This document shows positions 50 through 30,158 of a stretch of 34,818 nucleotides of DNA, piece by piece. Numbering within the stretch: position 1 is the first letter of the stretch; every line of letters begins with the position of its first letter. Source of the stretch: Clostridia bacterium (GTDB taxonomy: Bacteria > Bacillota > Clostridia > Christensenellales > QALW01); NCBI GenBank assembly GCA_017516345.1, contig JAFXDC010000062.1, positions 1 to 34,818 on the forward strand, written 5' to 3'. The translations under genes and the position numbers were made by a program. The notes below the pieces were generated by a model, which made no database searches, was not told where the DNA came from, and saw only the letters and a list, made by a program, of their open reading frames with translations.

Positions 50-2011
50 TTATTTACCTGTGTAGCTGTAGGAGTATCTTCCTACGGGGAATACCGAGCC
101 GGAGGTATAATAGCTCATCATATTGTCGGATTCCTTAACGGTGTCGGCAACCTTAAAGTAGAAGGTATTGGTGTTTTCCATGCCGATCACGCTTCTTGGG
201 ATCTTAAGGAACATAAACTCGTTTACCACTACCATCTCGGCCTCGCCGGCGTCGGTAAGTCCGAAACTCTTATCAAGCTTTTGAACCTTAACCTTGCCGT
301 TATTCTCAGCGGTTCTGTTGATAACGTAAGAGTAGCCCTCCCAGCCGTTATTGATATCGGGGTTACCTGCACTCAAGAATACGTTCATCCAGTTGTCGCC
401 GTAGCGCTCGGTGATATTATCTCCACAACGGATCATCATGTAGATATTATCAAGATCGTGAGTGACCCTTACCTCCTGGATGTTATTCTTGGGTGTCTCC
501 TCGGTGTAATGATACTTCTTACCATCTGCGGACATATAGTCTCTGCCGTAAGCCTCGGTACCAAACTGACGGTATACCGCCTCGACGTTGTACCACTGTG
601 CTACAGAGCCGTTGATATCTATATTGTTTCCGTAATAGGTTTTTGCGGTCTGATCGTTCTTGAACTTACGTATATTCTGGGTGCTTTGATGCACGTAGTT
701 ATCCTTATAATATCCGTTTGCAGGCTCGATGGAGATCGAATACTCATAGTTGCAGGTATCGCACATCATATACTCGCCGTCCCACTCGCTCTTAAGTGCG
801 GTCCAACCGTTCCACATTACTAACATAAGGGTATCGGGTTGCTTTTCGTGTGCCTGATCCCAACATATCTGATAATATGTACCCGACTCAAGTCCGCCAT
901 CCACCTTCATATTATTGTAGATGTCATAGTTTCTTCCCCAGTTTATTACCCCGCGGGTGATGCTGAAGGAGAAGGGGATATTGGGATGGCTTGCAACCGC
1001 AACGTTCATATAATCTCCAAGAGAGGTGGAACGAACGCGAAGGGGCTGTGCCCACTCGATCCACGAATAACCGATCCATCTGCCGTCGTACAGCTTGTCA
1101 TAGATGGGAGATTTATATCCCACGGTCATGCTGTCGTTGGGCCATCTGGGCTCTACGAAGTAGAAGAAATCAAGTATCTCCTGGCTGAGGTCTGCATACG
1201 TGCCGTCCGAGAAGTCGGTAACTCCTCTTGTGCCCGCCTCGGCGATATCCTTGGCGGTTTCGGTATAAGCTATGATGGCAGGCTTGCCGTCTCTTTTATA
1301 CCAGGCCTCCTCGTACTGTGTTTCGCAGTATATGTACTGATACAGCTCGCGAACGGTCTTATTGTTCATGGAATGAACGTAGAACACAACCTGAGGAGCG
1401 TCCCAGCCGTCGCCTCTTAGCTTGACTATTTCTGCCATAAGCTTCTCGCTTGCTTCTTCAAATATCCAACCGTTTGTAACGTCAAGCACGAGGTAATCAA
1501 TACCCATATTTGTAAAGAGCTCAAGCTGTTTTTTTATAATATACGGGTCGTTACTGTCGTAATATCCGTAAAGGGGCTCTCCCCAATAGTGGCTCTTATT
1601 GTTGGGGCTTATACGGTCCTTTTCCTTAAATACCTTATCCGGGCCGTACTCCTCGATGATCTTTGATACGTCGTATATACCGCTTCCGATGGTGCTCTTA
1701 AAGAAGCCCTCCGAAAGGTGATAGAATATACCTATCTGCTTATCGTTTTCGGTGGTATAAGGCATGGTGACTCTGCCAAGCTCATCCACGGCAACCATGT
1801 TGCTCGTATCGTAGCCAAGGCTTGCATACTTATCGTTTTCCTCTACCCATTCATATTTATCATCCTGCTCCACCACATTATAGCTTGGAATAGGCTCCAT
1901 GCTGAAGGTGGGATCCACACTTACGTCGGGGCCCGTGGGGGTATCACAGCCTGTAAGAAGAAGTGCAGAGGCAAGAATGATACAAAGCAATAAAGTTAAA
2001 TGTCTCTTCAT
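50..2011 (-). CDS. Secreted lipoprotein, GH71/GH99-like glycosidase candidate with C-terminal CBM9-like domain
   Basis: 653 aa. A lipoprotein signal peptide ends in LLTGC with Cys22 as the predicted lipidated residue, so it should sit on the outer face of the membrane. Residues about 100-430 read like a TIM-barrel glycosidase of the GH71/GH99-like type: short strand-like stretches such as GIDYLVLDVTNGW and VVFYVHSM alternate with helices, and the region is rich in Trp and Tyr. Residues about 480-650 (IDINGSVAQWYN onward, then INNGWEGYSYVIN) resemble a CBM9-like carbohydrate-binding sandwich. Family-level knowledge suggests hydrolysis of an alpha-linked glycan, but I cannot identify catalytic residues or substrate. 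The ATG is preceded by GGGAGGAAAAG, and a promoter and terminator of its own make it monocistronic. It could also be a non-catalytic binding protein. Confidence 0.6.
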   Translation of the reverse strand: MKRHLTLLLCIILASALLLTGCDTPTGPDVSVDPTFSMEPIPSYNVVEQDDKYEWVEENDKYASLGYDTSNMVAVDELGRVTMPYTTENDKQIGIFYHLSEGFFKSTIGSGIYDVSKIIEEYGPDKVFKEKDRISPNNKSHYWGEPLYGYYDSNDPYIIKKQLELFTNMGIDYLVLDVTNGWIFEEASEKLMAEIVKLRGDGWDAPQVVFYVHSMNNKTVRELYQYIYCETQYEEAWYKRDGKPAIIAYTETAKDIAEAGTRGVTDFSDGTYADLSQEILDFFYFVEPRWPNDSMTVGYKSPIYDKLYDGRWIGYSWIEWAQPLRVRSTSLGDYMNVAVASHPNIPFSFSITRGVINWGRNYDIYNNMKVDGGLESGTYYQICWDQAHEKQPDTLMLVMWNGWTALKSEWDGEYMMCDTCNYEYSISIEPANGYYKDNYVHQSTQNIRKFKNDQTAKTYYGNNIDINGSVAQWYNVEAVYRQFGTEAYGRDYMSADGKKYHYTEETPKNNIQEVRVTHDLDNIYMMIRCGDNITERYGDNWMNVFLSAGNPDINNGWEGYSYVINRTAENNGKVKVQKLDKSFGLTDAGEAEMVVVNEFMFLKIPRSVIGMENTNTFYFKVADTVKESDNMMSYYTSGSVFPVGRYSYSYTGK

Positions 2012-2205: not shown

Positions 2206-4944
2206 TTATTTTACCTTAACAAGTCTGTAGCTGTAGGTGGCATCCTTGTCGCCGCTGTGCTCCACGTTATAGGTTATCTCGTAGGCCTTAGTGTCGTTAT
2301 CGTACCAGGTCTGCCAATAGTCGTTGCCGTATACCGACTGGTCCACCTTCTCCCAGGTGTCACCCTTCTTGACCTGAAGCTCAAAGCCCTTGCTTGACTT
2401 CACGTTTGTAAAGGTAAGGGGTACGTAGCTTACGCCGCCCTTTACGGTGATCTCCGCCATAACGTCCTGATCGACGGTCTCAACGTAGATGGGAACCTGC
2501 TTAAGCACCTTGCCTACCGTTGCGGTAACAGTTGTCTTGTTGCCTACGGCATAGCGGTAAGCAAGCTTCCAGGTATTGAACTCCTCCCGGGGGAAGCCCT
2601 TCATTACCCGGCTGGGACCGTAGTATTGCTCCTTGGTAACGGGCAGGTTGATGTATTCCACAACGCCCTCCACGGTGGAGCCCTTAAGGATCTTGTTGCC
2701 CACCTCGGCGGGAGGACAGAGCTCTACCTGAATACAGGGAATATTGTAGTTCATGGTGTTTCTGAGGTTGAAGGAGGGCTTATCGTAGGTCTTGCCGTTA
2801 AGAACTGCGTTATAGGACACAACGTTAAGCATACGGTTTGCATCGGGACCCTTCTTATGCTCAAGAGGTACTGCTTGCATAAAGGCAAACCACATGCCCT
2901 CGCCGGGCACCTCGATGCGTTGCATGGTATCGCTTCCGATGTACTCTGCTTTTTTTGTGGTGGGGCAGGCAAATTCGCCGGAATATACGGTATCGCCAAT
3001 GTTGAAGCTTATAGTGCCGTCATCGTTACCTACCGCCATGGTCTTCCACTCGTTGTCGTTATAGTCATCAGCACCGAACTGATAGAACGCCATACGATCA
3101 AAGGTAACATCTTTGAGGAAGGTGTACTTAAAGGTGTGCCAAACACGGGAAGCATCATCGGTTCTGGGAAGGTTGGCGGTTATCTCAAACCTTACCGCAT
3201 CATCAAGCGTAACGCCGGTATAAATGACCTCGGTAATATTGGGGCCCTGCTTCTTAAAGCGGGTCTGTACCTGCTTGAAGTATACTATTTTGCCGCCCTT
3301 GTTTTTATTGTAAAAGAGCATATTGCCGCCGCCGTTACAAGCGGTCCAGCCATATTTTCCGCCCATGGAATCTACAAGCAGAGGACGGATATCATCAATG
3401 AAGGAGCGTCCGTGCGCGGTCTCGGGATCGTAGCAGAAGGACTCGCCGAAGATGCCGCTGGTCTCCCATTGCTGGTAGTTGCCACCCCAACCCGCAAGGG
3501 ATATCTGAGAGTGACTGCAAGCAAATACTCCGCCCCAGGTTCCGTAAACGATGGTCATTTCATAGGTCACGCTCTTACCTGCGGGGATCTCTATCATGGT
3601 ATAGCCATGGAACCAGGTTCCCGACCAATGGCGCTTGGGATCGTTTCTTGCCGCGTAGTGGGGGCTGTTTTTATCGGTGTTGTGCTCGTGCCAGTTCTTG
3701 GATAGCTGTACCTGCACGCCCACGGGCTCGCCGGTGACCGCATCACGTATCATTGGGCTGAACGCCTCAACGTGGAAATCCTTTTCCTTAACAAACTGAA
3801 TGGGAAGCTTGATGTCCGCACCGCTGTTATTGGTGATGGTGAACTTAAGACGGTCAAGATCGTCAAGCTTTTCGGTATCGCGGAAGTCGGTGGTGCGGTC
3901 GGTCATCATCTTGTTCATGTCGATCGAGAGATATCCCTTATGGGTATCAAAGGTGACGTCCTGCTCCTTACCCTCCTTGGGGGATATCTGCACAGCCTGG
4001 GTCTGAAGCCTTTCACGCGCAATATAGTTTACCGCATCCTGACTTGAGGCGTTTGCGGAGGGGATTATAATAATGCCCATGCCGTTAAACTGCGACTTTT
4101 TAAGGGTCACGCCAGTATATCTGAAAGTGATATTGCTTCCGTCGATGCTATAGGTGATGCCTTTCTCATCAGGGGCGATGAAGCTGTAGCCGTAGCCGTC
4201 GGCGTTTGCCACGGTGATGGCGCGTCCGTCGCAGCTTTGAGTAAATACGTTATACTCTGCGGGAAGCTTGAAGGTTATTCCCATTCCTACCCCCTCAAGC
4301 TTTGCATCGGGGGACCACAGAGCAAGCTCAAGGGCCATATATTCAGGCATTACCGCTATCTCCACTCTGCCCGAGATATCGGCAAAATTCTTAAACATAA
4401 GGCTCATGATGTCGATGCGCTGCATATAGCGACCCGACTCAAGTATTCTTGAGCTTATGTTTCCGCCGCCAACGGCGTTGGTGTACTGATATTTACAATC
4501 CTCGCCGTCCTTATTAATGGCAAAATAGCTTGTTTTGATCTCGGGGAGGGACTCAAGCAGCTTATTGTCACCCGTGTTTACCTGACTTTCGGGAATATCC
4601 TGCTTGATATATCCCAGATTCTTTATAATACCGCTTAAGGTATTGACTGTAACGCCGTAGTGACCGGTCTGCATATTCATCTGCCACATGCCGCCGCGGT
4701 TGAATCCGTCACGCCACCACATGGTGGTGTAATCCCTTGTGTCGGGCTTTTGAATAACGTTTCCGTTTTCGTCATATTCATATTCCTTGCCGCTGGGTGT
4801 CTCTCCCGTTACGCCCTGCTGCACGTCCTGAGTGGGAGTGGTGCTCTGAGAGGGGGTCACCGAAGCGGTGGGCACGGTTCCAACGTCGCACGCAGTAAGC
4901 AGCATTGCAACCGCAATAAGTAAAATAATTATACTTTTTCTCAA
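2206..4944 (-). CDS. Large secreted lipoprotein of unknown function
   Basis: 912 aa. Residues 1-19 form a lipoprotein signal peptide (MLLTAC, Cys19), followed by a Thr/Ser/Gln/Pro-rich linker to about residue 60. The rest is beta-rich and aromatic, with many Trp, Tyr and Gly residues (for example WGGVFACSHSQISLAGWGG near the middle), as in extracellular carbohydrate-active or carbohydrate-binding proteins. The last ~80 residues (ITVKGGVSYVPLTF onward) look like a separate beta-sandwich. I do not recognise a named family. The start is TTG at 4944: GGAGG lies 7 nt upstream and the signal peptide begins there. Next to another secreted lipoprotein, but transcribed on its own. Polysaccharide lyase, glycosidase or binding protein are all possible. 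Confidence 0.7.
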   Translation of the reverse strand: MRKSIIILLIAVAMLLTACDVGTVPTASVTPSQSTTPTQDVQQGVTGETPSGKEYEYDENGNVIQKPDTRDYTTMWWRDGFNRGGMWQMNMQTGHYGVTVNTLSGIIKNLGYIKQDIPESQVNTGDNKLLESLPEIKTSYFAINKDGEDCKYQYTNAVGGGNISSRILESGRYMQRIDIMSLMFKNFADISGRVEIAVMPEYMALELALWSPDAKLEGVGMGITFKLPAEYNVFTQSCDGRAITVANADGYGYSFIAPDEKGITYSIDGSNITFRYTGVTLKKSQFNGMGIIIIPSANASSQDAVNYIARERLQTQAVQISPKEGKEQDVTFDTHKGYLSIDMNKMMTDRTTDFRDTEKLDDLDRLKFTITNNSGADIKLPIQFVKEKDFHVEAFSPMIRDAVTGEPVGVQVQLSKNWHEHNTDKNSPHYAARNDPKRHWSGTWFHGYTMIEIPAGKSVTYEMTIVYGTWGGVFACSHSQISLAGWGGNYQQWETSGIFGESFCYDPETAHGRSFIDDIRPLLVDSMGGKYGWTACNGGGNMLFYNKNKGGKIVYFKQVQTRFKKQGPNITEVIYTGVTLDDAVRFEITANLPRTDDASRVWHTFKYTFLKDVTFDRMAFYQFGADDYNDNEWKTMAVGNDDGTISFNIGDTVYSGEFACPTTKKAEYIGSDTMQRIEVPGEGMWFAFMQAVPLEHKKGPDANRMLNVVSYNAVLNGKTYDKPSFNLRNTMNYNIPCIQVELCPPAEVGNKILKGSTVEGVVEYINLPVTKEQYYGPSRVMKGFPREEFNTWKLAYRYAVGNKTTVTATVGKVLKQVPIYVETVDQDVMAEITVKGGVSYVPLTFTNVKSSKGFELQVKKGDTWEKVDQSVYGNDYWQTWYDNDTKAYEITYNVEHSGDKDATYSYRLVKVK

Positions 4945-5092: not shown

Positions 5093-6346
5093 TTAACCCA
5101 GGCTTGCAGTCTGCTTGCTTGCCCAGTCCTTTTTTGCATTTTCTATATCCTTTTGCTGTGGCTGATATGGATGTATACTGCAGGGCACGGTATTGCCCTC
5201 GCCGTTTTCATCCGGGAACGGTGTGGCATTATCATTTTCCCAAAGCACACGCTCCTCTTCCTTGCTCATGTCGGGGATATCGTAGCGTTTTCCCTCCATC
5301 GCGCTTCTCCAGCCAAGTATTGCAACGCTGGACATTGCCACCGAGCGATACACGTCAAAGAAGGGATCACGGTCCTTTTCTATGCAGTTTACGAATTCCC
5401 TTATCATCCAGAAATCACTGCCGCCGTGTCCGAAGCCGTTGCAAAGCTCTCTGTCAAGCTCGTCATCCACCCTCCACGGAGGATCGTAGGTGGTATCGGG
5501 CTCTCCCTCGGGTCTGTGCCAGTCGTTATAGCGCACGGTGACCTTTTCCACGGTGCTGTACGGATTTTCCGCGCTTCCCCTGGAGCCGCTTATACGGTAG
5601 TGGTTACCGTGTCCGCCCCAGGCGCTTGCCCCCTGCACCCTTGCTATGGAGCCGTCCGACATGCTTAAAAGCATTACAGCATGCTCGGGAGTACGCCTTA
5701 TGGTACCCTCTATCCATTCGGGAAAGTATACGGTCTGCGCCATTACGGTCATGGGCATACTTTGAGTAATGTGCATCACCGGCCCCAACGCATGCGTGCA
5801 ATAGTAGGTAGGCGGGCACCAGACCCTCCAATGATTCGGCTCGGGAGTGGTGGCGTTTCTGTATGCCGCAGGAGAGGGATGGTTGTACTCTCCCTCACAA
5901 TACAGCGCTCTGCCGAGCTTGCCCGACTGATACAGATGCTTCATCTCAAGATTGCATCTCATAAAGGGGTAATTCTCCGCAAGCATATATTTTACGCCGT
6001 TTATCTTGTTATATTTTTCCCACTGTCTGCAAAGCAGTACACCCTCCGCCATGGTGGAGTTGCTTATGGTCTCGCTTAAAACGTGTATGCCCCTTTCAAA
6101 GCATTTGACGGCAAACCTGACGTGCTGATCAAAATAGTTCGCCAAAATTACCGCATCAAGTCCATCGTGCTCAATGAATTCATCAAAGTCGGTATATGCC
6201 TTGCCTCCGGGAGCAAGCAGCTCCTTGCATTTATCTATCCTTTCCTGATCGACGTCACAGATGGCAACAAGCTCCACGTTTGCCTTCTTCATAATTATTG
6301 CGTACCACCAGCCGCGACTGAGTCCGAATATTCCAAGTCTTATCAT
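5093..6346 (-). CDS. Gfo/Idh/MocA-family oxidoreductase (copy A)
   Basis: 417 aa, normal length for the family. The N-terminal Rossmann fold starts with GIFGLSRG (residues 5-12), followed by an acidic cofactor-binding position in CDVDQERI. The C-terminal domain carries THALGPV (184-190) and GFGHGGSDFW, typical of the substrate domain. Family members are NAD(P)-dependent sugar or inositol dehydrogenases, and some catalyse dehydration or hydrolysis by redox cycling. The usual EKP motif is replaced by SET (91-93) and a distinctive AENYPF follows at 123-128, so standard lysine-based catalysis is doubtful. Last gene of the operon, 74 nt after copy B, with GGAGA 7 nt upstream of ATG. The first ~130 residues are almost identical to copy B. 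Substrate unknown; cytoplasmic. Confidence 0.88.
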   Translation of the reverse strand: MIRLGIFGLSRGWWYAIIMKKANVELVAICDVDQERIDKCKELLAPGGKAYTDFDEFIEHDGLDAVILANYFDQHVRFAVKCFERGIHVLSETISNSTMAEGVLLCRQWEKYNKINGVKYMLAENYPFMRCNLEMKHLYQSGKLGRALYCEGEYNHPSPAAYRNATTPEPNHWRVWCPPTYYCTHALGPVMHITQSMPMTVMAQTVYFPEWIEGTIRRTPEHAVMLLSMSDGSIARVQGASAWGGHGNHYRISGSRGSAENPYSTVEKVTVRYNDWHRPEGEPDTTYDPPWRVDDELDRELCNGFGHGGSDFWMIREFVNCIEKDRDPFFDVYRSVAMSSVAILGWRSAMEGKRYDIPDMSKEEERVLWENDNATPFPDENGEGNTVPCSIHPYQPQQKDIENAKKDWASKQTASLG

Positions 6347-6420: not shown

Positions 6421-7686
6421 CTAGCCAAGCTTTGCCGCCTGGTTTTTCGCCCATACCCTCTCCGCCTCGGCGATGTCCTCCGCGGTGGGCTCGTAGGGAT
6501 CAAGCGAGCAGGGCACTGTGGCTCCCTCTCCGTTCTCATCGGGGAAGGGTGTGGAGTTATCGTTCTCCCAAAGCACTCTGTCCTCTTCCTTGCTCATGTC
6601 CGGGATCTCGTAGGTCTTGCCCTCTAAAACAGAGCGCCAGCCAAGAATGGCGACGCTCGCCATCGCGGTTGCGCGATAGACGTTAAAGTACGGCTCCCGA
6701 TCCTTTTGTATGCAGTTTACGAATTCTCTTACCATCCAGAAATCGCTTCCGCCGTGACCGTAGCCCTCGCAAAGGGATGCATCAAGCTCGTCATCCAAAT
6801 GCCACTGAGCATCGTATATCCTGTCGCTCTCCCCCTCGGGACGCTGCCAGCTATTATAACGAAGATTTATCCTGTCCTGATCTCCCCTTACGCTCTCGGC
6901 GGTGCCGAACTCTCCTGCTATCAGATAATGATTGCCCTCTGCTGCATATCCGGTGCAGCCCTGGACCCTTGCCACGGCGCCGTTATTCATTTTGCAAAGC
7001 ATTATCGCGCCGCTTTCACAGACGCGTCTTACAGGTCCTCCGCACCTTTCCGCCTTATCGGTAACGCTTATCGTTTGAGCGGTGACCGACACGGGAGTAA
7101 GACCTGTAATAAACATTACAGGACCCAGCGCGTGCGTATTATAATACGTTGCGGGAAGCCATGCACGCCAATGGTACATCGATGGAGTTATCATATTTGT
7201 AAATTCCTTTGGGGCGGGATGATTGTACTCGCCCTCGGCATACATCACCCTGCCAAGTCTGCCTGACTCGTAAAGATATTTAAGCTCCTGATTGCACTTC
7301 ATAAAGGGGTAATTCTCCGCAAGCATATACTTTACGCCGTTTATCTTGTTATATTTTTCCCACTGTCTGCAAAGCAGTACGCTCTCCGCCATGGTGGAGC
7401 TGCTCGTGGTCTCGCTTAAGACGTGTATGCCCCTTTCAAAGCATTTGACGGCAAACTTGACGTGCTGATCAAAATAGTTACACAGTAAGACCGCATCCAA
7501 GCCGTCGTGCTCAATGAATTCATCAAAGTCTGTATATGCCCTACCGCCCGGAGCAAGCAGCTCCTTGCATTTATCTATCCTTTCCTGATCGACGTCACAG
7601 ATGGCAACAAGCTCCACGTTTGCCTTTTGCATAAGTATCGCGTACCACCAGCCGCGACTGAGTCCGAATATTCCAAGTCTTATCAT
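6421..7686 (-). CDS. Gfo/Idh/MocA-family oxidoreductase (copy B)
   Basis: 421 aa, tandem paralogue of the next gene. It has the same GIFGLSRG Rossmann start, the same SET in place of EKP, and the same AENYPF, THALGPV and GHGGSDFW motifs. The N-terminal ~130 residues and the last ~120 are highly conserved between the copies, while residues about 140-300 differ much more, including a longer loop around DKAERCGGPVRR. This suggests a shared cofactor and reaction with different substrates. The ATG has GGAGA 7 nt upstream. It lies 59 nt after the DMT permease gene and no terminator separates them, so it belongs to the LacI-headed operon. Sugar oxidation in the cytoplasm is inferred from family and context. 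Confidence 0.88.
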   Translation of the reverse strand: MIRLGIFGLSRGWWYAILMQKANVELVAICDVDQERIDKCKELLAPGGRAYTDFDEFIEHDGLDAVLLCNYFDQHVKFAVKCFERGIHVLSETTSSSTMAESVLLCRQWEKYNKINGVKYMLAENYPFMKCNQELKYLYESGRLGRVMYAEGEYNHPAPKEFTNMITPSMYHWRAWLPATYYNTHALGPVMFITGLTPVSVTAQTISVTDKAERCGGPVRRVCESGAIMLCKMNNGAVARVQGCTGYAAEGNHYLIAGEFGTAESVRGDQDRINLRYNSWQRPEGESDRIYDAQWHLDDELDASLCEGYGHGGSDFWMVREFVNCIQKDREPYFNVYRATAMASVAILGWRSVLEGKTYEIPDMSKEEDRVLWENDNSTPFPDENGEGATVPCSLDPYEPTAEDIAEAERVWAKNQAAKLG

Positions 7687-8661: not shown

Positions 8662-9609
8662 TCATGCCTCTCCCGATGCGGTGATCACCTTGGAGGCCAC
8701 GTATCTGCTTTGAGCCTCCTTGCCGTCCAAGAGGTCAAGCACAAGCTCTACAGAGCCATAGCCCTGCGCATAGGCGTCCTGTACCACGCAGCCAAGCATA
8801 CTGCCATCGTTAAGATACCGTCTGTCCGCCCCGGCAAGCTCGTGGCCAATCAGCACGATGCGCTTATCGGTCCTTTCCCTAAGCTTATATATTGCGCCTC
8901 CGCCAACGTGGCTGGCGCCCGTGGTGACGTATACACAATCGGGATATCCCGCCTCCGCAAGCCTTTTTGCAAGCATGGCGGCGGCAATATTTTGGGCGTT
9001 ATTGAGCTGAATGACCGTGATCCTTACGTTGGGTATTCGGCTTTTTACGGTATCGGTAAAGCCCTCTATTCGTTTGTTGACCGTCATCTTGCCCCTGAAT
9101 TTTACAATTGCAATATGGGTGACATCCTTCACCAATCCCGCCGCCTTTACCCCCTCGTCGTATCCGTCGGGGCCTATAAAGGGCAGGCCTTGGTCGTCGC
9201 TCTCCTCGTTAAGCAGAACACACGGGCGACTCTTGAGCATTTCTTTAGTTTGGGGCTCCAACGTATCGGAGGGGTAGCAGATATAGCAATCGCACTCGCC
9301 GATCCGGCTCTGCAGAGTCATCCCAAGGTCTCTGGAATAATAGAAAAAATTAGCCCTTATGCTGCGCCCCGACGCCTTTATGGCGTCGCTTATTCCGCTT
9401 GTAACGTCCTTCCAGAAAAATATGGGACGCTTTGGCACGATGACCCCCACCGTGATACCGTCCCCCGAGCTTTTCTTGCACGCCGCGTTATACATTTCCA
9501 ACACCTCGCGCGAGGTCTTATCGGAGAAGGCAAACGGATCGCTTATTATCTTTTTTACCGTGGACTCGGAGAGTCCCAGCTTTTTTGATATATCCTTTAT
9601 GACTGACAT
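8662..9609 (-). CDS. LacI-type transcriptional regulator
   Basis: 315 aa. The N-terminal helix-turn-helix (residues about 3-45; VIKDISKKLGLSESTVKKI) matches the LacI pattern of alternating Ser/Thr and Val. A periplasmic-binding-protein-like ligand domain follows from about residue 52 (ITVGVIVPKRPIFFWKDV) to the end, of the type that binds sugars. It heads a four-gene operon, so it most likely responds to the sugar handled by the downstream permease and oxidoreductases and regulates its own operon. Start ATG at 9609 has AAGGAAG 6 nt upstream. The hinge region is short and unlike the canonical LacI hinge helix. A 10-bp palindrome ATTGCACAAT at 9676-9685 upstream is a weak operator candidate. 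Confidence 0.85.
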   Translation of the reverse strand: MSVIKDISKKLGLSESTVKKIISDPFAFSDKTSREVLEMYNAACKKSSGDGITVGVIVPKRPIFFWKDVTSGISDAIKASGRSIRANFFYYSRDLGMTLQSRIGECDCYICYPSDTLEPQTKEMLKSRPCVLLNEESDDQGLPFIGPDGYDEGVKAAGLVKDVTHIAIVKFRGKMTVNKRIEGFTDTVKSRIPNVRITVIQLNNAQNIAAAMLAKRLAEAGYPDCVYVTTGASHVGGGAIYKLRERTDKRIVLIGHELAGADRRYLNDGSMLGCVVQDAYAQGYGSVELVLDLLDGKEAQSRYVASKVITASGEA

Positions 9610-9814
9610 GCTGCTTCCTTATTTATATTTATCACAAAAATTTTAACAAACAAGATACAGAAAATAAATATACTCATTGCACAATTATTTTTTATATTAT
9701 TTTTTAACACACCTCTGCTTTCCTTTTTTTGCGCACGCCCACCCCATACACGCCCGTATATTACCCGCTATACCCCCCTATATTCTAAATTTTGCTTCAA
9801 ATAATAAAAACACC

Positions 9815-9843
9815 TTGACAGAAACCGCCCTCATCAATATAAT
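9815..9843 (+). promoter_or_regulatory. Consensus sigma-A promoter of yceD-rpmF
   Basis: TTGACA (9815-9820), 17-nt spacer, TATAAT (9838-9843): a perfect match in all twelve positions. Transcription would begin near 9850, which rules out the longer upstream reading frame and fixes the YceD start at 9872. Confidence 0.95.
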
Positions 9844-9871
9844 ATCATGGTGCAAAGATGAGGAGTTTTTT

Positions 9872-10375
9872 ATGATCCTGAACGTAAAAAATGCATTAAA
9901 AAATCCCGGTGAGGTCTTCGAGCTTGAATGCGATGTGGTTTTTCCAGAGGAAGACTTTCAGGGCACGGTCAAATATAACCGCGCGGCACACTTTTCCGGC
10001 TCGTATGCCTCAATAGGCGGAAATATCGAGCTCAAGGGGGATGTCACCGCAAGCCTCAGGTTGGTTTGCTCAAGATGTCTTGAGGAATTTGACAAGCTTG
10101 TTTCTTGCGAGGTGGAGGAATGCTTCTCCCACGACCCGACCGACGACATGCTTCCCATCAGCGCCGCCGACACGGTAGACGTCGGTGAATGTATTCACAG
10201 CAGCATTCTTATGAGCCTGGAGCTCTTGAGGATATGTTCTCCCAAATGCAAGGGGCTCTGTCCCGTTTGCGGAGTAAATAGAAATGAAGTATCGTGCTCG
10301 TGCAGTCAGAGCAAACCGAAGAAGGACAACCCCTTCGAGGTACTGCAAGGGCTGCTAGACAACGAGGAGGTGTAA
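9872..10375 (+). CDS. yceD: YceD/DUF177 family protein
   Basis: 167 aa. The family is conserved in bacteria directly upstream of rpmF and has been linked to rRNA metabolism; its molecular function is not settled. The sequence shows the family's CSRCLEEF motif near residue 67 and a C-terminal cysteine cluster ([13 protein letters not shown], then CSCSQS) that looks like a metal-binding site. The start ATG at 9872 is chosen because AGGAG lies 6 nt upstream and the promoter -10 sits at 9838-9843; an open frame extends further upstream but cannot be transcribed from that promoter. The stop is 4 nt before rpmF, and the rpmF ribosome binding site is inside its 3' end, so the two are co-transcribed. 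Confidence 0.92.
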
Positions 10376-14994: not shown

Positions 14995-17112
14995 ATGAAA
15001 AAGCTACTTACGGTATTGCTGGCGGTATGTCTTCTTACCCTGTGTGCTTGCACACCGAGCACCGAGGTAACAAACAGCCCGTCCGGCAATCCAACGACCG
15101 AAATACCCTCCGTAGGTACCACTGAAGGCACCACCGCGGGTACTACCGAAGGTGTCACCGAGGGTACTACAGAAAGTGCGACACCCGATCCCACTCCCGC
15201 TCCCGAGGAGTCTGACAAGCTGGTAATTGAGGATTTTGAGAAGGGCGAGCCCTCCGACCTTGTTGCAAGCCTTGACTGGTCGGACAAAGGCTACGGCATT
15301 GAAAACCCCATTTTGTCCATCATAAGCGACGGCACCGATATCGGCAAGGGCTACAAGGTAGAGCTTCTTGGCGCATCGTGGTGTCAGAACCTTACCTTAA
15401 AAGGAGATAAGGTATCCGCTGCTTACGCAAAGGGCGAAAAATATCTGCGCATGTGGATAAGCAATCCCACCTCCGGAACGGTGGGAATCGGTATTACCAT
15501 TTACAACAATGACAGCGTTCTTGCAAGCTACGGCGTTACTAAGGCTGTTATTACCGGCGCAAACGGAACCGCCTCCAAGCTCGAGGTCGGCGATCCCTCC
15601 GATATGGGCCAGGGCACTGCATCTGCAATTATCGTACCCTCAGGCTTCCAGGGTTGGATAGCCTTTGACACCACCGAGCTCATCCCACATTGGGGCAATC
15701 CCGTGTTAAGTGACACCACCGCTGTTAATAGGATAGTTATCGACGTTCGTCCCAACGGCTTCTCCGCAGAGGAGTTCTACGTGCTTGACGAGATCTGCCT
15801 TGCCAGGAGCGCAAGCGGCAATGCCCGCACATGGGACGATCCCAACAAAGGAGAGGAAGAAGAGTTGCCCAAGGACGTACATATCTTAAACGGCTTTAAC
15901 AACGCCATCAACACCACCCCCGAATTCCACGAGATGCCCGACTTTGCCCCCACCGGTCAGTTTGCGGGCATCAAGGCAGGCTGGTTTGAGGGTATGACCA
16001 AGAACGGCAAAAAGACCAAGGTATTTGCATACGTAGGCTTCCCCAAGGATGCAAGCGCATCAAGCAAGGTTCCCGCCATCGTGCTTAACCACGGCGGCGG
16101 CGGTCACGCCTTCCTGCAGTGGGTAAAGATGTGGAACGACCGCGGCTATGCGGCAATCGCCATCGACAACACGGGCTACTTCCCCACCAAGGTAAATGCG
16201 GGCAGCACCGAGACCAACGGCGATTGGCGCTTCGGTATTCCAAGAGATCTTAAGGAGGACGGCTTCGTAAACGCTCCCAACAACGACGGCATGGGCTCCT
16301 CCAAGGGCAAGGTGGAAAATATGTGGATGTACCACGCAGTTGGTCAGACCATACTTGCCTCCAATATCCTTCGCGCTGATGAGCGCGTAGACGGCAGCAA
16401 GGTCGGGGTTACCGGCATCTCCTGGGGCGGCGTAATAACCAGCATCACCATAGGCTATGATACCCGCTTTGCATTTGCAATTCCGATCTACGGCTCGGGC
16501 TATCTTGATGAGGCTCTCTCCTGGATGAAGGATAACTTTGCAGGTGCAGAGACCCGCGAGCTCTGGCTTGCTCAGGACAATTTTGATAAGGTGGATATGC
16601 CCGTTCTGTGGCTGTGCTGGAACGACGATAACTGCTTCTCCATCAACAGCAACTCCAAGAGCTATCTTGACACCATCAAAAACAATCCCGATACAAGACT
16701 CAGCATGATCAATAAGATGTATCACTCCCACGGCAGCGGTTGGGCACCCGGCGAGAGCATGCTCTTTGCCGACTCCATCGTCAAGGGCGGCACCAAGCTG
16801 ACAGACTTCAAGTCTCAGCCCACGGGTAAGAGCATAAACGCCGAGCTTATCATGGCAAGCGGCGTAACGGTTACCGCTACTCTTTATTACATCACCGAGG
16901 ATATGACCTATTCCACCTACGATAAGAACGGCTGGAACAGTCCCAGCACCTATATGGATCAGACCTGGCAGACCAAGGCCCTTTCCGTGGAGAACGGCAA
17001 GGTGGTAGGCGAGATCCCCTCCGATGCCAAGGGCTATTACGTAGAGCTTAAGACCACCATAGACGGCAAGCAATACGTTACCTGCTCGGCATGGACCACC
17101 GACGTAAAATGA
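14995..17112 (+). CDS. Secreted lipoprotein esterase, paralogue 1, with extra N-terminal binding-like domain
   Basis: 705 aa. Signal peptide with Cys19 as lipidation site (TLCAC). A Thr/Glu/Gly repeat linker (TTEGTTAGTTEGVTEG) runs to about residue 70. Residues about 76-271 form a beta-rich domain also found in the anchored protein at 29357-30091. From about 300 an alpha/beta-hydrolase follows: oxyanion region HGGGGHAF, nucleophile Ser476 in GISWGG, likely acid Asp544 or Asp545 in WNDDN, likely base His577 or His579 in YHSHGS. A C-terminal beta domain of ~100 residues completes it. Family resemblance is to acetylxylan-esterase/dienelactone-hydrolase-type enzymes, so surface removal of acyl groups from glycans is a reasonable inference; substrate unknown. 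Own promoter, RBS AAAGGAG and terminator. The hydrolase core is nearly identical to paralogue 2. Confidence 0.85.
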   Translation: MKKLLTVLLAVCLLTLCACTPSTEVTNSPSGNPTTEIPSVGTTEGTTAGTTEGVTEGTTESATPDPTPAPEESDKLVIEDFEKGEPSDLVASLDWSDKGYGIENPILSIISDGTDIGKGYKVELLGASWCQNLTLKGDKVSAAYAKGEKYLRMWISNPTSGTVGIGITIYNNDSVLASYGVTKAVITGANGTASKLEVGDPSDMGQGTASAIIVPSGFQGWIAFDTTELIPHWGNPVLSDTTAVNRIVIDVRPNGFSAEEFYVLDEICLARSASGNARTWDDPNKGEEEELPKDVHILNGFNNAINTTPEFHEMPDFAPTGQFAGIKAGWFEGMTKNGKKTKVFAYVGFPKDASASSKVPAIVLNHGGGGHAFLQWVKMWNDRGYAAIAIDNTGYFPTKVNAGSTETNGDWRFGIPRDLKEDGFVNAPNNDGMGSSKGKVENMWMYHAVGQTILASNILRADERVDGSKVGVTGISWGGVITSITIGYDTRFAFAIPIYGSGYLDEALSWMKDNFAGAETRELWLAQDNFDKVDMPVLWLCWNDDNCFSINSNSKSYLDTIKNNPDTRLSMINKMYHSHGSGWAPGESMLFADSIVKGGTKLTDFKSQPTGKSINAELIMASGVTVTATLYYITEDMTYSTYDKNGWNSPSTYMDQTWQTKALSVENGKVVGEIPSDAKGYYVELKTTIDGKQYVTCSAWTTDVK

Positions 17113-17133
17113 TCAGGCTTAGCTGATACCCTT

Positions 17134-17167
17134 AACACCCAAGTGCTTCGCGCTTGGGTGTTTTTTT
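17134..17167 (+). terminator. Terminator of esterase paralogue 1
   Basis: Stem ACACCCAAG / CTTGGGTGT with a short GC-rich loop, then a T run. Confidence 0.92.
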
Positions 17168-17220
17168 AGTGATGCTTCTATAAAAATTCTTATAATTTTT
17201 ATTTTTCTATTGCTTGAGTA

Positions 17221-17249
17221 TTGAAATATCACACATATTATGCTATAAT
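17221..17249 (+). promoter_or_regulatory. Promoter of esterase paralogue 2
   Basis: TTGAAA (17221-17226), 17 nt, TATAAT (17244-17249). It overlaps the apparent 5' extension of the reading frame, which fixes the start at 17281. Confidence 0.88.
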
Positions 17250-17280
17250 GAATAAAATCGTAATTAAAGGAGTTAAAAAA

Positions 17281-18708
17281 ATGAAAAAGCTATTGTCATT
17301 ACTTTTGCTGCTTTGCACTCTGTTTGTATGTGCGTGCGCTCCCACAGAGCAGCCCACTGCATCACCTGAGGGCACTCAGGGAAGCACCGAGACCCAAGGC
17401 ACTGCGGAGGTTCCCGAGCCCACGCCCGCTCCCACCATGCTTCCCACCGATGAGAGCCTTCCCGCAAGCCAGCAGATCGAAAACGGCTTTATAAACGCCA
17501 CGAACACCACCCCCGAGTTCCATGAAATGCCTGATTTTGCCCCCACAGGTCAGTTTGCGGGCATCAAGGCAGGCTGGTTTGAGGGCATGAGCAAAAACGG
17601 CAAAAGGACCAAGGTATTTGCATACATAGGCTTCCCCAAGGATGCAAGCGCCGACAGTAAGGTGCCTGCCATCGTGCTTAACCACGGCGGCGGCGGTCAC
17701 GCCTTCCTGCAATGGGTAAAGATGTGGAACGACCGCGGCTATGCGGCAATCGCCATCGACAACACGGGCTACTTCCCCACCAAGGTAAACGCGGGCAGCA
17801 CCGAGATCAACGGCGACTGGCGCTTCGGTATTCCAAGAGATCTTAAGGAGGACGGCTTCATAAACGCCCCCAACAACGACGGAATGGGTTCCTCCAGGGG
17901 CAAGGTCACGAACATGTGGATGTACCATGCAGTGGGTCAGACCATACTTGCCTCCAATATCCTTCGCGCTGATGAGCGCGTAGACGGCAGCAAAGTCGGG
18001 GTTACAGGCATCTCCTGGGGCGGCGTAATAACCAGTATCGTTATTGGCTACGACACCCGCTTTGCATTTGCAATTCCGATCTACGGCTCGGGCTATCTTG
18101 ACGAGTCCCTTGCCTGGATGAAGGATAACTTCGGCGGCGCGCAGACTAAGGAGCTTTGGCTTGCTCAGGATAATTTTGATAAAGCAGATATGCCCGTGCT
18201 CTGGCTGTGCTGGAACGACGACACCTGCTTCTCCATCAACAGTAACTCCAAGAGCTATCTTGATACCGTAAAGAACAATCCCGATACAAGACTCAGCATG
18301 ATCAATAAGATGTATCACTCCCACAGCAGCGGTTGGGCACCCGGCGAGAGCATGCTCTTTGCCGACTCCATCGTCAAGGGCGGCGCCAAGCTTGCTGACT
18401 TCACATCTCAGCCCACGGGTAAGAGCATAAACGCCACCCTCAGCATTGATCCCTCCGCCACCGCTATCTCGGCAACTCTTTATTATATTACTGCCGATAT
18501 GACCTACAGCAAGTACGATAAGCACGGCTACGGCTATGCCGACACCGCAATGGATCAGGTATGGCAGACCAAGGCCCTTACCATAGAGGACGGCAAGGTA
18601 ATCGGGGATGTTCCCGCCGATGCAAAGGGCTACTATATTGAGCTCAAGACCACAATTGGCGGCAAGCAGTACGTTTCCTGCTCTGCATGGATCACCGACG
18701 TTAACTGA
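17281..18708 (+). CDS. Secreted lipoprotein esterase, paralogue 2
   Basis: 475 aa from ATG 17281. The frame is open 20 codons further upstream, but AAAGGAG sits 8 nt before this ATG and the promoter -10 lies at 17244-17249. Signal peptide with Cys19 (FVCAC), then a short Thr/Glu/Pro linker and directly the alpha/beta-hydrolase; the extra domain of paralogue 1 is absent. HGGGGHAF, Ser245 in GISWGG, WNDDTCF and YHSHSSGW give the likely oxyanion hole, nucleophile, acid and base. The core matches paralogue 1 over long stretches of DNA, while the signal peptide and linker match paralogue 3. Predicted surface serine esterase; substrate unknown. Confidence 0.87.
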   Translation: MKKLLSLLLLLCTLFVCACAPTEQPTASPEGTQGSTETQGTAEVPEPTPAPTMLPTDESLPASQQIENGFINATNTTPEFHEMPDFAPTGQFAGIKAGWFEGMSKNGKRTKVFAYIGFPKDASADSKVPAIVLNHGGGGHAFLQWVKMWNDRGYAAIAIDNTGYFPTKVNAGSTEINGDWRFGIPRDLKEDGFINAPNNDGMGSSRGKVTNMWMYHAVGQTILASNILRADERVDGSKVGVTGISWGGVITSIVIGYDTRFAFAIPIYGSGYLDESLAWMKDNFGGAQTKELWLAQDNFDKADMPVLWLCWNDDTCFSINSNSKSYLDTVKNNPDTRLSMINKMYHSHSSGWAPGESMLFADSIVKGGAKLADFTSQPTGKSINATLSIDPSATAISATLYYITADMTYSKYDKHGYGYADTAMDQVWQTKALTIEDGKVIGDVPADAKGYYIELKTTIGGKQYVSCSAWITDVN

Positions 18709-18722
18709 CGGGCCGATTTCTG

Positions 18723-18754
18723 CTACCCAAGCGCTTCGCTTGGGTAGTTTTTTC
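18723..18754 (+). terminator. Terminator of esterase paralogue 2
   Basis: Stem CTACCCAAGCG / CGCTTGGGTAG around TT, then TTTTTT. Confidence 0.92.
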
Positions 18755-18840
18755 TCTTGAGGTGTTGCTTGCAAATACCATCAAGGCTTGCGAAAAATAT
18801 AAGCATTATAAATTTTCGGTGCAAAACACTCCTTTTGTTG

Positions 18841-18869
18841 TTGAAATTAAGGATATATTGTGATAGAAT
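18841..18869 (+). promoter_or_regulatory. Promoter of esterase paralogue 3
   Basis: TTGAAA (18841-18846), 17 nt, TAGAAT (18864-18869). Confidence 0.8.
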
Positions 18870-18900
18870 ATAAAAAAATACTAAAATAGGAGCAATCATA

Positions 18901-20337
18901 ATGAAAAAGATAGTTACTGTTTTGCTGATACTTTGCACCCTGTTTGTCTGCGCGTGCGCTCCCACCGAGCAGCCCACCGCATCACCTGAGGGTACTCAGG
19001 GAAGCACCGAGACCCAAGGCACTGCGGATGTTACCCCCGAGCCCACTCCGACTCCCACCATGCTTCCCACCGATGAGAGCCTTCCCACAAGCCAGCAGAT
19101 AGAGAACGGCTTTATTAATGCCACGAACACCACCCCCGAGTTCCACGAGATGTCTGATTTTAACCCTACGGGTCAGTTTGCGGGAATCAAGGCAGGTTGG
19201 TATGAGGGTATGGACAAAAACGGCAAAAAGACCAAGGTCTTTGCCTACGTTGGCTTCCCCAAAAATGCAAGCGCCGACAATAAGGTCCCCGCAATAGTGC
19301 TTGTGCACGGAGGCGGCGGTCACGCATTTTTGCAATGGGTAAAGATGTGGAACGATCGCGGTTATGCCGCAATCGCAATGGATAACACGGGCTACTTCCC
19401 CACCAAGGTGAACGCGGGAAGTACCGAGACCAACGCCGACTGGCGCTTCGGTATTCCAAGAGATCTTAAGGAGGACGGCTACACAAACGCCCCCAATAAC
19501 GACGATCTTCAGTCCTCCAATAAAAAAAATGCAAGCACCATGTGGATGTATCACGCTGTAGGTCAGACCATTCTTGCCTCCAACCTGCTTCGCGCAGATG
19601 AGCGCGTAGACGCTGACAAGGTCGGCGTTACAGGCATCTCCTGGGGTGGACTTATAACAAGCATCACCATGGGCTACGACAGCCGCTTTGCCTTTGCAAT
19701 TCCGATCTACTGCACCGGCTACTCGGTGGAAAACGTATGGGGCGGCATGTACACAAGATTCACCCGTGACAACGGCACCCAGGAGCTTTGGGCACCCGAG
19801 AACCGCTACGATAAGGTAACCATGCCTGTGTTGTGGCTGTGCTGGAACGATGATAACGGACTGTGGGTAAAGAGTAACTCCCATAGCTATCTTGACGGCA
19901 TCAAGAACAATCCCGACTGCCGCCTGAGCATGAAGCATAAGATGTTCCATTCTCACGGATCGGCATGGACTCCCGGAGAAAGCATGGCCTTTGCCGACTC
20001 GGTGGTAAAGGGCGGAGCAAAGCTTACCCAGGTGACCGATAATTCTCAGGGCAAAGCTCTCTCCCTGACCCTTAATGCCGATGCAAGCGCAACAAAGATC
20101 ACCGCTACTGCTTATTATCTTACCAAGGAGATAACCCATAAAAAGTACAAAAAATATCACTACGATCCGTCCCACGATTTCCTTGAGGAGCAGTGGAACA
20201 CCGTAGCGCTGACGGTTGACGGAAATACCGTAAGCGGTACTCTGCCCGATGACGCATTAAGCTACTACGTAGAGGTCAAGACCACCGTTGGCGGCAAGGA
20301 GTACGTTACAAGCTCGGTATACACCGCCTTCAACTGA
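18901..20337 (+). CDS. Secreted lipoprotein esterase, paralogue 3
   Basis: 478 aa. Signal peptide with Cys19 (FVCAC); the signal and linker DNA is close to identical to paralogue 2. The alpha/beta-hydrolase has VHGGGGHAF, Ser247 in GISWGG, WNDDNG and FHSHGSAW as the probable catalytic elements. It differs from paralogues 1 and 2 in the segment after the nucleophile (YCTGYSVENVWGG instead of YGSGYLDE) and in the C-terminal domain (YLTKEITHKKYKKYHYDP), features it shares with paralogue 4. So the array has two substrate-domain types. RBS AGGAG lies upstream of ATG, with own promoter and terminator. Predicted surface serine esterase; substrate unknown. Confidence 0.87.
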   Translation: MKKIVTVLLILCTLFVCACAPTEQPTASPEGTQGSTETQGTADVTPEPTPTPTMLPTDESLPTSQQIENGFINATNTTPEFHEMSDFNPTGQFAGIKAGWYEGMDKNGKKTKVFAYVGFPKNASADNKVPAIVLVHGGGGHAFLQWVKMWNDRGYAAIAMDNTGYFPTKVNAGSTETNADWRFGIPRDLKEDGYTNAPNNDDLQSSNKKNASTMWMYHAVGQTILASNLLRADERVDADKVGVTGISWGGLITSITMGYDSRFAFAIPIYCTGYSVENVWGGMYTRFTRDNGTQELWAPENRYDKVTMPVLWLCWNDDNGLWVKSNSHSYLDGIKNNPDCRLSMKHKMFHSHGSAWTPGESMAFADSVVKGGAKLTQVTDNSQGKALSLTLNADASATKITATAYYLTKEITHKKYKKYHYDPSHDFLEEQWNTVALTVDGNTVSGTLPDDALSYYVEVKTTVGGKEYVTSSVYTAFN

Positions 20338-20354
20338 TCTGTAAAAGCATTATT

Positions 20355-20387
20355 AAAGCACGGACTTAAATGAACCGTGCTTTTTTT
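20355..20387 (+). terminator. Terminator of esterase paralogue 3
   Basis: Stem AAAGCACGG / CCGTGCTTT with an 11-nt loop, then a T run. Confidence 0.9.
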
Positions 20388-20407
20388 ATAAAATTTTCAG
20401 TTTTTTA

Positions 20408-20436
20408 TTGATTTTCCTCATAGCATTTGATAAAAT
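20408..20436 (+). promoter_or_regulatory. Promoter of esterase paralogue 4
   Basis: TTGATT (20408-20413), 17 nt, TAAAAT (20431-20436). Confidence 0.8.
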
Positions 20437-20462
20437 ATAAAAAAACAAAAGGAGAAATAAAC

Positions 20463-21716
20463 GTGAACAGATCGCAGCAGCTTGAGCTTGCATTCACGCA
20501 AGCAGAAAATATCACTCCGATTTTAAACGATATGCCCGAATTTGCTCCCACGGGAGCTTACTCCTACATACGCCCCGTATGGTTCGAGGGCATGAACAAG
20601 GGAGATAAAAAAACCAAGGTCTTTGCCTATATCGGCTTCCCCGAAAACGCAAGCGCCCACAGTAAGGTCCCCGCAATAGTGCTTGTGCACGGAGGCGGCG
20701 GGCACGCCTTTTTACCCTGGGTAAAGATGTGGAACGACCGCGGATACGCCGCCATTGCCATGGATGACACGGGCTACTTCCCCACTGCGATAAACGCAGG
20801 CGACAGCGAGACGTGCAAAAATTGGGAGTTTGGTCTGCCCGAATATCTCAAGGAGCCCGACTATACCGACGCTCCCAATAACGACGATCTTACCTCCTCG
20901 GCAAATGAGGACGTAAGCACCATGTGGATGTACCACGCCGTAGGTCAGGCAATACTTGCCGTAAGCATACTTCGCGCCGACGAGCGCGTGGAGAGCTCCA
21001 AGGTGGGCCTTACGGGAATTTCCTGGGGCGGACTTATTACCAGCATCACCATGGGATACGACGACAGGCTCGCCTTTGCCATTCCGGTATACTGCACCGG
21101 CTACTCTGCAAGCAACCCCTGGGGCGGCATGAAGGAGCGCTTCAGCCGCGATAACGGCACCGCCGAGCTTTGGTCTCCCGAGGCGCGCTACGATAAGGTA
21201 AAAATGCCGGTTTTGTGGAGCTGTTGGAATGACGATAACGGTATGTCGGTGCAATCCAATTCCTTAAGCTATCTTGACGGAGTTAAAAACAATCCCGAGG
21301 ATCGCCTTAGCATAAGGCATATGATGTTCCATTCCCACTCATGCTCCTGGTGCGTTCCCGAGAACATGGCGTTTGCCGACTCTGTGGTAAAGGGCGGCGC
21401 AAGGCTGACCGGAATAGAAAATAACACCGTGGGCAGAAGCATAAGCCTTACCCTGACCCCCGACTCCTCCGCAGAGGGCATTACCGCCACCGTCTTCTAC
21501 CTTACCAAGGAGATCACCCACAGTAGGTTTAAAAAGTATCATTACGATCCCTGGCATGAATTCCTGGAGGAGTATTGGAATACCGCTCCTCTTACGGTGG
21601 AGGGCAATAAGGTCTCGGGCGAGGTTCCCGCGGATGCCTTAAGCTACTACGTGGAGATAAAGACCCTCATAGGCGGCACAGAATACGTTACAAGCTCGGT
21701 ATATACCGAATTATAA
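20463..21716 (+). CDS. Cytoplasmic esterase, paralogue 4
   Basis: 417 aa from a GTG at 20463, chosen because AAAGGAG lies 8 nt upstream. The apparent earlier ATG at 20427 overlaps the -10 element, and the protein alignment with the paralogues begins just after the GTG. No signal peptide and no linker: it starts directly with the pre-hydrolase segment (LAFTQAENITPILNDMPEF), so it should stay in the cytoplasm. VHGGGGHAF, Ser187 in GISWGG, WNDDNG and FHSHSCSW give the usual catalytic set. Closest to paralogue 3 in the cap and C-terminal regions. It could act on imported oligosaccharides or esters left by the surface enzymes (inference). Confidence 0.87.
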   Translation: MNRSQQLELAFTQAENITPILNDMPEFAPTGAYSYIRPVWFEGMNKGDKKTKVFAYIGFPENASAHSKVPAIVLVHGGGGHAFLPWVKMWNDRGYAAIAMDDTGYFPTAINAGDSETCKNWEFGLPEYLKEPDYTDAPNNDDLTSSANEDVSTMWMYHAVGQAILAVSILRADERVESSKVGLTGISWGGLITSITMGYDDRLAFAIPVYCTGYSASNPWGGMKERFSRDNGTAELWSPEARYDKVKMPVLWSCWNDDNGMSVQSNSLSYLDGVKNNPEDRLSIRHMMFHSHSCSWCVPENMAFADSVVKGGARLTGIENNTVGRSISLTLTPDSSAEGITATVFYLTKEITHSRFKKYHYDPWHEFLEEYWNTAPLTVEGNKVSGEVPADALSYYVEIKTLIGGTEYVTSSVYTEL

Positions 21717-29356: not shown

Positions 29357-30091
29357 TTATCTCTTCTTTGCAACTACGAGAGCGCCAAGACCGGTGATAG
29401 CAGCCACTGCGTAAGCGATAACAGAGATATCAGCGGTAGTGGTGATATCGTCAACGAACTGTGCGCTGTCAAGGACAAAGTAAATATCTCCGGCAGGCTC
29501 GTTGGGAAGGGGAGACCAAGCACCGAATCTGATGTCGATGTTAAGTCTGTCTGCATTTGTAACATCAGCGGAGTAAGCGCTCAAAGGCCAATAAATGAAG
29601 CCCTTAAAGCCGGCAGGAACGATAACGGCTGCTGTGCTGTTGCCGCTCATTCCGCCTTCACCGGTATTAACGGTAGGCTTGCTTCCATCGGTAGCTACAA
29701 GAACACACTGCGAGCTATCAAATACGTTTGCACCACCAAAGTTAAGTCTGAAGGAAAGCTCAACATCACTGCCGGTAGTATCCATGTAGATTCTGAAATA
29801 CTGGTCAGTCGTGCCGTTCTTGATGGCAGCAACTACATCGGCGTCGGTAATGTGGAAATCACATACAGCAGCGGTGCGAACACATTCAACCTTAACACCG
29901 TTGCCGTCGTTTCCTGAAACTGCGGAAATCGAAGGTGCGGAAAGGCCATAGCTTGCAAGACCTGCGTTCCAGCCCATGAAGGTGGAAATATCGGTTGCAT
30001 CAAAGCCACTAACAAGAGTTTCTGCAGCAAAAGCAGTCAAACTAAAGCAAGCCATCATTACTGCAAGAAGGATTGTGATGATCTTTTTCAT
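29357..30091 (-). CDS. Secreted, C-terminally anchored protein with a carbohydrate-binding-like domain
   Basis: 244 aa from ATG 30091. AAAGGAG lies upstream, and an earlier in-frame ATG at 30130 overlaps the -10 box, so the shorter form is used. A cleavable signal peptide (ends AFAAE) is followed by one beta-rich domain (about 25-210) that matches residues 76-271 of the first esterase: compare AAVIVPAGFKGFIYW here with SAIIVPSGFQGWIAF there, and RLNIDIRFG with RIVIDVRPN. A hydrophobic helix and KKR end the protein, preceded by TADIS; this looks like a sorting or stop-transfer tail without LPXTG. A surface binding protein is inferred. Own strong promoter. Confidence 0.75.
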   Translation of the reverse strand: MKKIITILLAVMMACFSLTAFAAETLVSGFDATDISTFMGWNAGLASYGLSAPSISAVSGNDGNGVKVECVRTAAVCDFHITDADVVAAIKNGTTDQYFRIYMDTTGSDVELSFRLNFGGANVFDSSQCVLVATDGSKPTVNTGEGGMSGNSTAAVIVPAGFKGFIYWPLSAYSADVTNADRLNIDIRFGAWSPLPNEPAGDIYFVLDSAQFVDDITTTADISVIAYAVAAITGLGALVVAKKR

Positions 30092-30128
30092 AATGATAAT
30101 CTCCTTTATATAATTATTTGTTGCTACC

Positions 30129-30158
30129 ATTATATCCCCCTCCGCTGGAATTTGTCAA
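30129..30158 (-). promoter_or_regulatory. Promoter of the anchored binding-like protein gene
   Basis: Minus strand TTGACA (30153-30158), 18 nt, TATAAT (30129-30134): both hexamers perfect, suggesting high expression. Confidence 0.9.

Follow-up and report, generated by a model that had tools for sequence, protein, structure and literature searches.

Concerted evolution of tandem paralogues by gene conversion has been described in prokaryotes (PMC6053082) as well as for tandem arrays of Trypanosoma brucei (PMC1855330). With these systems, as far as they are treated in the two accounts, the locus analysed here shares homogenised segments, trees that depend on the block of the gene under study, and paralogues whose mutual similarity exceeds that to the sister-species orthologue. 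It differs from them in that homogenisation appears to be partial and to act at the scale of domains, in that the exchanged patch comprises an export signal and a linker instead of a whole gene, and in that the array seems to be young and not long-lasting. Our literature search returned general treatments of the process and did not turn up the array itself. Such exchange is ordinary and well documented, and the array is a clear instance of it, not a new system. The locus lies on a 34,818-nucleotide stretch (in the following referred to as the window) from contig 11 of a clostridial draft genome (1.61 Mb, 68 contigs, 70.5% complete) and harbours four alpha/beta-hydrolase genes, e1 to e4. We consider it probable that these genes form an array of mostly secreted, CE7-like carbohydrate esterases, which has been reshaped by gene conversion between its copies.

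The four genes are arranged in tandem and head to tail on the + strand (14995-21716), and the four open reading frames bear out the four tandem esterase paralogues named by a first-pass annotation of the sequence. For e4, the GTG start codon at 20463 was adopted in place of the TTG at 20427 given in the mechanical list of open reading frames. The features of the array are as follows:

14995-17112, + strand: e1, 705 aa; lipoprotein signal, linker, CBM-like beta domain, CE7-like alpha/beta-hydrolase esterase and C-terminal beta domain
15211-15855, + strand: beta domain of e1 (residues 73-287), predicted jelly-roll like CBM28/CBM11
16420-16422, + strand: predicted catalytic serine codon of e1 (GISWGG); counterparts at 18013, 19639 and 21021
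17137-17166, + strand: terminator hairpin and T-run of e1; sequence common to e1 and e2 (e2 copy at 18725-18753), not to the 3' flanks of e3 and e4
17281-18708, + strand: e2, 475 aa; lipoprotein signal, linker and esterase; 5' block grouping with e3, remainder with e1
17281-17538, + strand: e2 segment common to e3, from the signal through the linker to about codon 86; e3 counterpart at 18901-19161
18901-20337, + strand: e3, 478 aa; lipoprotein signal, linker and esterase with second cap type; 5' half near e1/e2, 3' half and promoter e4-like
18901-19528, + strand: 5' tract of e3, putatively converted by e2; runs from the signal to approximately column 447 of the alignment, with an imprecise 3' edge in columns 434-488
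20463-21716, + strand: e4, 417 aa; GTG start; esterase with second cap type and without signal peptide

Each gene is preceded by a ribosome-binding site and a promoter-like region of its own. The column of the predicted catalytic serine is invariant across an alignment of 33 sequences, and all four copies look active, since the GISWGG nucleophile, the WNDD aspartate and the HSH histidine are kept in each of them. A lipobox (LCAC/VCAC) can be read from the signal peptides of e1, e2 and e3, while e4 begins right at the esterase and lacks a signal peptide, so that the earlier description as a surface-enzyme family fits e1 to e3 and fails for e4. Only e1 carries an extra beta domain of approximately 215 residues at the junction of linker and esterase, which is absent from e2 to e4. 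In turn, e3 and e4 have a cap (IYCTGYS..WGGM..RF) and a C-terminal domain in common that are unlike those of e1 and e2 (tree support 1.0), as the first-pass annotation had recognised; its two domain types are real as sequence types. Judged by fold and layout, the two cap types probably correspond to two specificities. The e1-specific domain, the missing signal peptide of e4 and the occurrence of the e3/e4 cap only at this locus had not been pointed out at first pass.

The assignment of the family is based on weak matches to alpha/beta-hydrolase profiles and on structure prediction. The profile of the dienelactone hydrolases (DLH, Pfam PF01738; cut-off 21) is passed by e1 (23.1), e2 (24.5) and e4 (22.4), with e3 (19.4) falling below, while none of the four reaches the gathering score of 21 for AXE1 (PF05448; 16.5, 17.7, 17.0 and 17.1 bits for e1 to e4). 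According to the AlphaFold2 prediction for e1 (mean pLDDT 84), residues 290-598 match best to the CE7 acetyl xylan esterase/cephalosporin C deacetylase 1l7a (Z 25.9 over 266 residues, rmsd 3.2). As an S9 carboxypeptidase follows next in the ranking (Z 23.4), the modelled fold alone is insufficient to single out CE7. Thus, e1 resembles CE7 enzymes (1l7a, 3fvt and 1vlq) in its predicted fold and in the GxSxGG nucleophile, but the array differs from them by an identity of only 14-16%, by scores below the AXE1 cut-off and by the additional C-terminal beta domain, to which e1 adds the N-terminal CBM-like domain. When modelled separately (AlphaFold2, pLDDT 81.6), the latter domain was superposed by VIA-align with Z 11.7 on 3acf (CBM28) and Z 11.1 on 6r3m (CBM11) over approximately 150 residues. 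The likeness to these jelly-roll modules is one of fold only (10-16% identity), with no Pfam family and no PDB sequence match above noise, and we regard the domain as a putative carbohydrate-binding module. At 29357-30130 (- strand), a stand-alone protein is encoded that combines an e1-type CBM-like beta domain with a signal peptide and, apparently, a membrane anchor at the C-terminus; it has no Pfam match. The substrate may be a plant polysaccharide, which fits the alpha-L-rhamnosidase encoded in the same window. From fold and layout, e1 to e3 would act as surface lipoproteins that deacylate plant polysaccharides outside the cell, with e4 as their counterpart inside the cell, where it would process fragments taken up.

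For comparison, we used one other genome of the genus, Bacillota bacterium SUG1229 (JAQXIQ01), here called the sister species. It has a single full-length e1-type gene in a conserved neighbourhood, separated by one open reading frame from the orthologue (85% identical) of the DUF1846 gene flanking e1 in the window. A second esterase copy of the sister species (s110; 8864-10057 of locus L043) is unlinked and, like e4, has no signal peptide. We retrieved 80 named loci from an alignment search, and none of them contained a second esterase copy. Given one array-type gene in the sister species and no fetched locus with two, the expansion to four copies appears to be local to this lineage, and the copy-number variation that the first-pass annotation had named as a check was thus found. 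The succession of signal, beta domain and esterase is common, as a domain profile detected it in many clostridial relatives from gut and rumen as well as in the sister copy; hence, e1 is most simply read as the ancestral layout and e2 to e4 as reduced forms. No relative with a readable cap had the CTGYS..WGGM..RF type of e3 and e4.

How are the four copies related to each other? In promoter, core, cap, C-terminal domain and terminator, e1 groups with e2; apart from the terminator, the same blocks place e3 with e4. The 5' coding block, comprising signal peptide, linker and first esterase codons, deviates from this pattern in that e2 pairs with e3. Both similarities had been noticed at first pass: core positions 16060-16200 of e1 are identical to e2 at 133 of 141 sites (94%), although in the register 17653-17793 and not 17660-17800 as quoted, which is off by 7 bases, and signal and linker DNA of e2 and e3 (17330-17410 against 18950-19030) agree at 76 of 81 sites (94%). 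Over the whole 5' coding block, e1 and e2 share only 62% identity. In a codon alignment of e1 to e4 and two sister genes, e2 matches e3 at 76 of the 88 informative sites up to column ~323 (17538 in e2) and e1 at 244 of 305 sites downstream. MaxChi places the break in e2 between columns 323 and 325, with p = 0.0001 in permutations for all sites and equally for silent sites only. Employing AU tests on four taxa with the sister copy as outgroup, we found that the 5' signal/linker block supports (e2,e3) and rejects (e1,e2) (p = 0.001); in the last 270 codons, (e2,e3) is the rejected grouping (p = 0.042). The PHI test gave p = 0.06 on the four genes and p = 0.002 with the two sister genes added. 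Block-wise trees, the check proposed at first pass, thus conflict between signal/linker and the 3' part, and the earlier suggestion of recombination or gene conversion proves mostly right and offers the best account. Its wording that no single duplication tree explains the array holds for the 5' block only, as the unrooted split of e1 and e2 against e3 and e4 is rejected in none of the esterase blocks. For this reason, the cap and C-terminus common to e3 and e4 do not constitute a conflict in themselves; the anomaly seems to lie in a 5' half of e3 that is too near to e1 and e2.

This unusual nearness of the e3 5' half becomes visible in silent distances. Between e2 and e3, dS amounts to 0.42 (0.27-0.78) in signal and linker, 0.51 (0.33-0.78) in columns 324-447 and 1.18 (0.81-1.68) beyond column 447, while the controls for columns 324-447 and 447-717 are flat (e3-e4: 1.06 and 1.19; e1-sister: 1.18 and 1.13). 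Derived sites shared by e1, e2 and e3 stand against those shared by e3 and e4 at 27:11 before column 488 and at 9:63 after it (p = 8e-10), with a silent-only version of the test not being significant (p = 0.30). A GENECONV-like run between e2 and e3 covers 14 silent codons in columns 412-434 (p = 0.007 before correction for the six pairs), and silent-only MaxChi for e3 was not significant (p = 0.26). No AU test rejected the grouping of e3 with e4, the values for the N-terminal half being 0.33-0.54, a range at which e3 was not retained as a formally proven topological recombinant. As neither AU in the N-terminal half nor silent-only MaxChi decides against the pairs e1/e2 and e3/e4, the case for e3 rests on distances, which make its mosaicism likely.

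Could a single duplication tree with the pairs e1/e2 and e3/e4 and strongly uneven rates, i.e. a fast signal and linker of e1 along with caps and C-termini of e3 and e4 under selection, produce the same picture without any recombination? Because simulating a long e1 branch alone reproduced the raw 5' site counts, MaxChi was dropped as stand-alone proof, and our reading now relies mainly on silent distances and polarised sites together with the AU test. The weak silent-only tests for e3 and the AU results in the esterase blocks likewise agree with such a tree. However, the AU rejection in the 5' block speaks against a long e1 branch, as do sites polarised by the sister copy: in the 5' part, with e1 equal to the sister copy, 26 sites unite e2 and e3 against 4 uniting e1 and e2, compared to 25 against 65 on the 3' side of the break. 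In addition, dS between e2 and e3 is lowered in the 5' block relative to the 0.90 after the break, which an acceleration of e1 cannot cause. Rate differences as the sole explanation therefore appear very improbable, and we take the 5' exchange between e2 and e3 as demonstrated at the level of sequence comparison.

Whether this exchange requires conversion is a separate matter, as a single unequal crossing-over between e1 and e3 would yield e2 as a middle hybrid with the 5' part of e3 and the 3' part of e1. This was our first model: e2 occupies the expected position in the middle of e1 and e3, dS between e1 and e2 past the break (0.39) equals that between e2 and e3 ahead of it (0.42), and one continuous alignment of 1765 columns (83%) runs from the e1 core via the spacer to the 5' end of e2. 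Spacer alignment was dropped as evidence since the shared terminator dominates it. A crossing-over predicts that e2 derived its promoter from e3, yet the upstream flank of e2 is closer to that of e1 (54/72, z 5.4) than to that of e3 (46/70, only z 2.2), and e3 pairs with e4 (z 3.9); these flanks are short (about 70 bases), promoter-bearing and hence constrained. In the 3' flanks, e1 and e2 are similar with z 6.7 and all other pairs with z < 1. Because promoters pair e1 with e2 and e3 with e4 and terminators pair e1 with e2, the segment common to e2 and e3 is probably internal, which is clear on its 3' side and depends on the approximately 70 promoter-bearing bases on its 5' side. Crossing-over also leaves the nearness of e3 to e1 and e2 in columns 324-447 unexplained and, after the promoter comparison, was lowered as sole cause to an unlikely alternative. 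An assembly artefact, i.e. repeats collapsed or chimerised, has to be considered for a contig of an incomplete draft genome in 68 pieces. Exact repeats between copies reach at most 77 bp, which is shorter than the usual read length. Moreover, the copies differ markedly along most of their sequence, their frames are intact and each has a promoter-like region of its own, rendering an artefact extremely improbable.

Gene conversion within the array, the account we favour, would start from a gene of the lipoprotein type with CBM-like domain and esterase that multiplied in tandem in this lineage, homologous recombination then pasting segments from copy to copy. In the simplest series, e1 and e2 would have arisen by duplication (dS 0.64 in less conserved parts), after which e2, a putative donor as the comparison covers one genome of the species, would have passed on the signal peptide, the linker and the 5' half of its esterase (approximately 630 bp; dS 0.42-0.51) to an e4-like gene, resulting in e3. 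Later, patchy exchange may have homogenised the e1/e2 core (dS 0.24), whose low silent divergence is borderline as a tract (p = 0.068). DUF1846 orthologues of the window and the sister species differ by a dS of 1.47 (1.13-2.16) compared to 0.39 (0.30-0.50) between e1 and e2 after the break, and therefore at least this e1/e2 similarity should be younger than the species split. A bolder version, which we regard as conceivable though doubtful, is that conversion grafted the e2-derived export signal and linker onto an intracellular e4-type esterase with a new cap and thereby created e3. If true, this would represent a natural domain graft by which a diverged enzyme reached the cell surface in a single step. 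From the sequence evidence, a gut-type lineage of the Clostridia seems to multiply and recombine one polysaccharide-esterase gene, leading to copies with different export and cap modules.

The esterases are not the only tandem genes of this genome with such a pattern. In a pair of Gfo/Idh/MocA oxidoreductase genes (5093-6346 and 6421-7686, - strand), which has one close relative in the sister genome, codons 1-134 are nearly identical (dS 0.26), while the rest of the gene is saturated at silent sites (dS 2.41), with p = 0.0001 for the change-point. The pair appears to have undergone the same partial homogenisation and lends independent support, with a conversion tract sharper than in the esterases. 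Two independent tandem families would thus be partly homogenised in one 35 kb window, and the lineage may therefore be suited for measuring how conversion reshuffles carbohydrate-active enzymes. As negative control served two tandem genes from contig 44 of this genome (704-2383 and 2446-4326 of locus L049), which share 49% amino acid identity and show uniform silent divergence (0.43). Two large lipoprotein-like genes in the window (50-2011 and 2206-4944, - strand) have no Pfam match; the product of the former is 30% identical to a lipoprotein of the L049 pair. The linker of the second L049 copy resembles the TQG-rich linker of e2 and e3 at the protein level.
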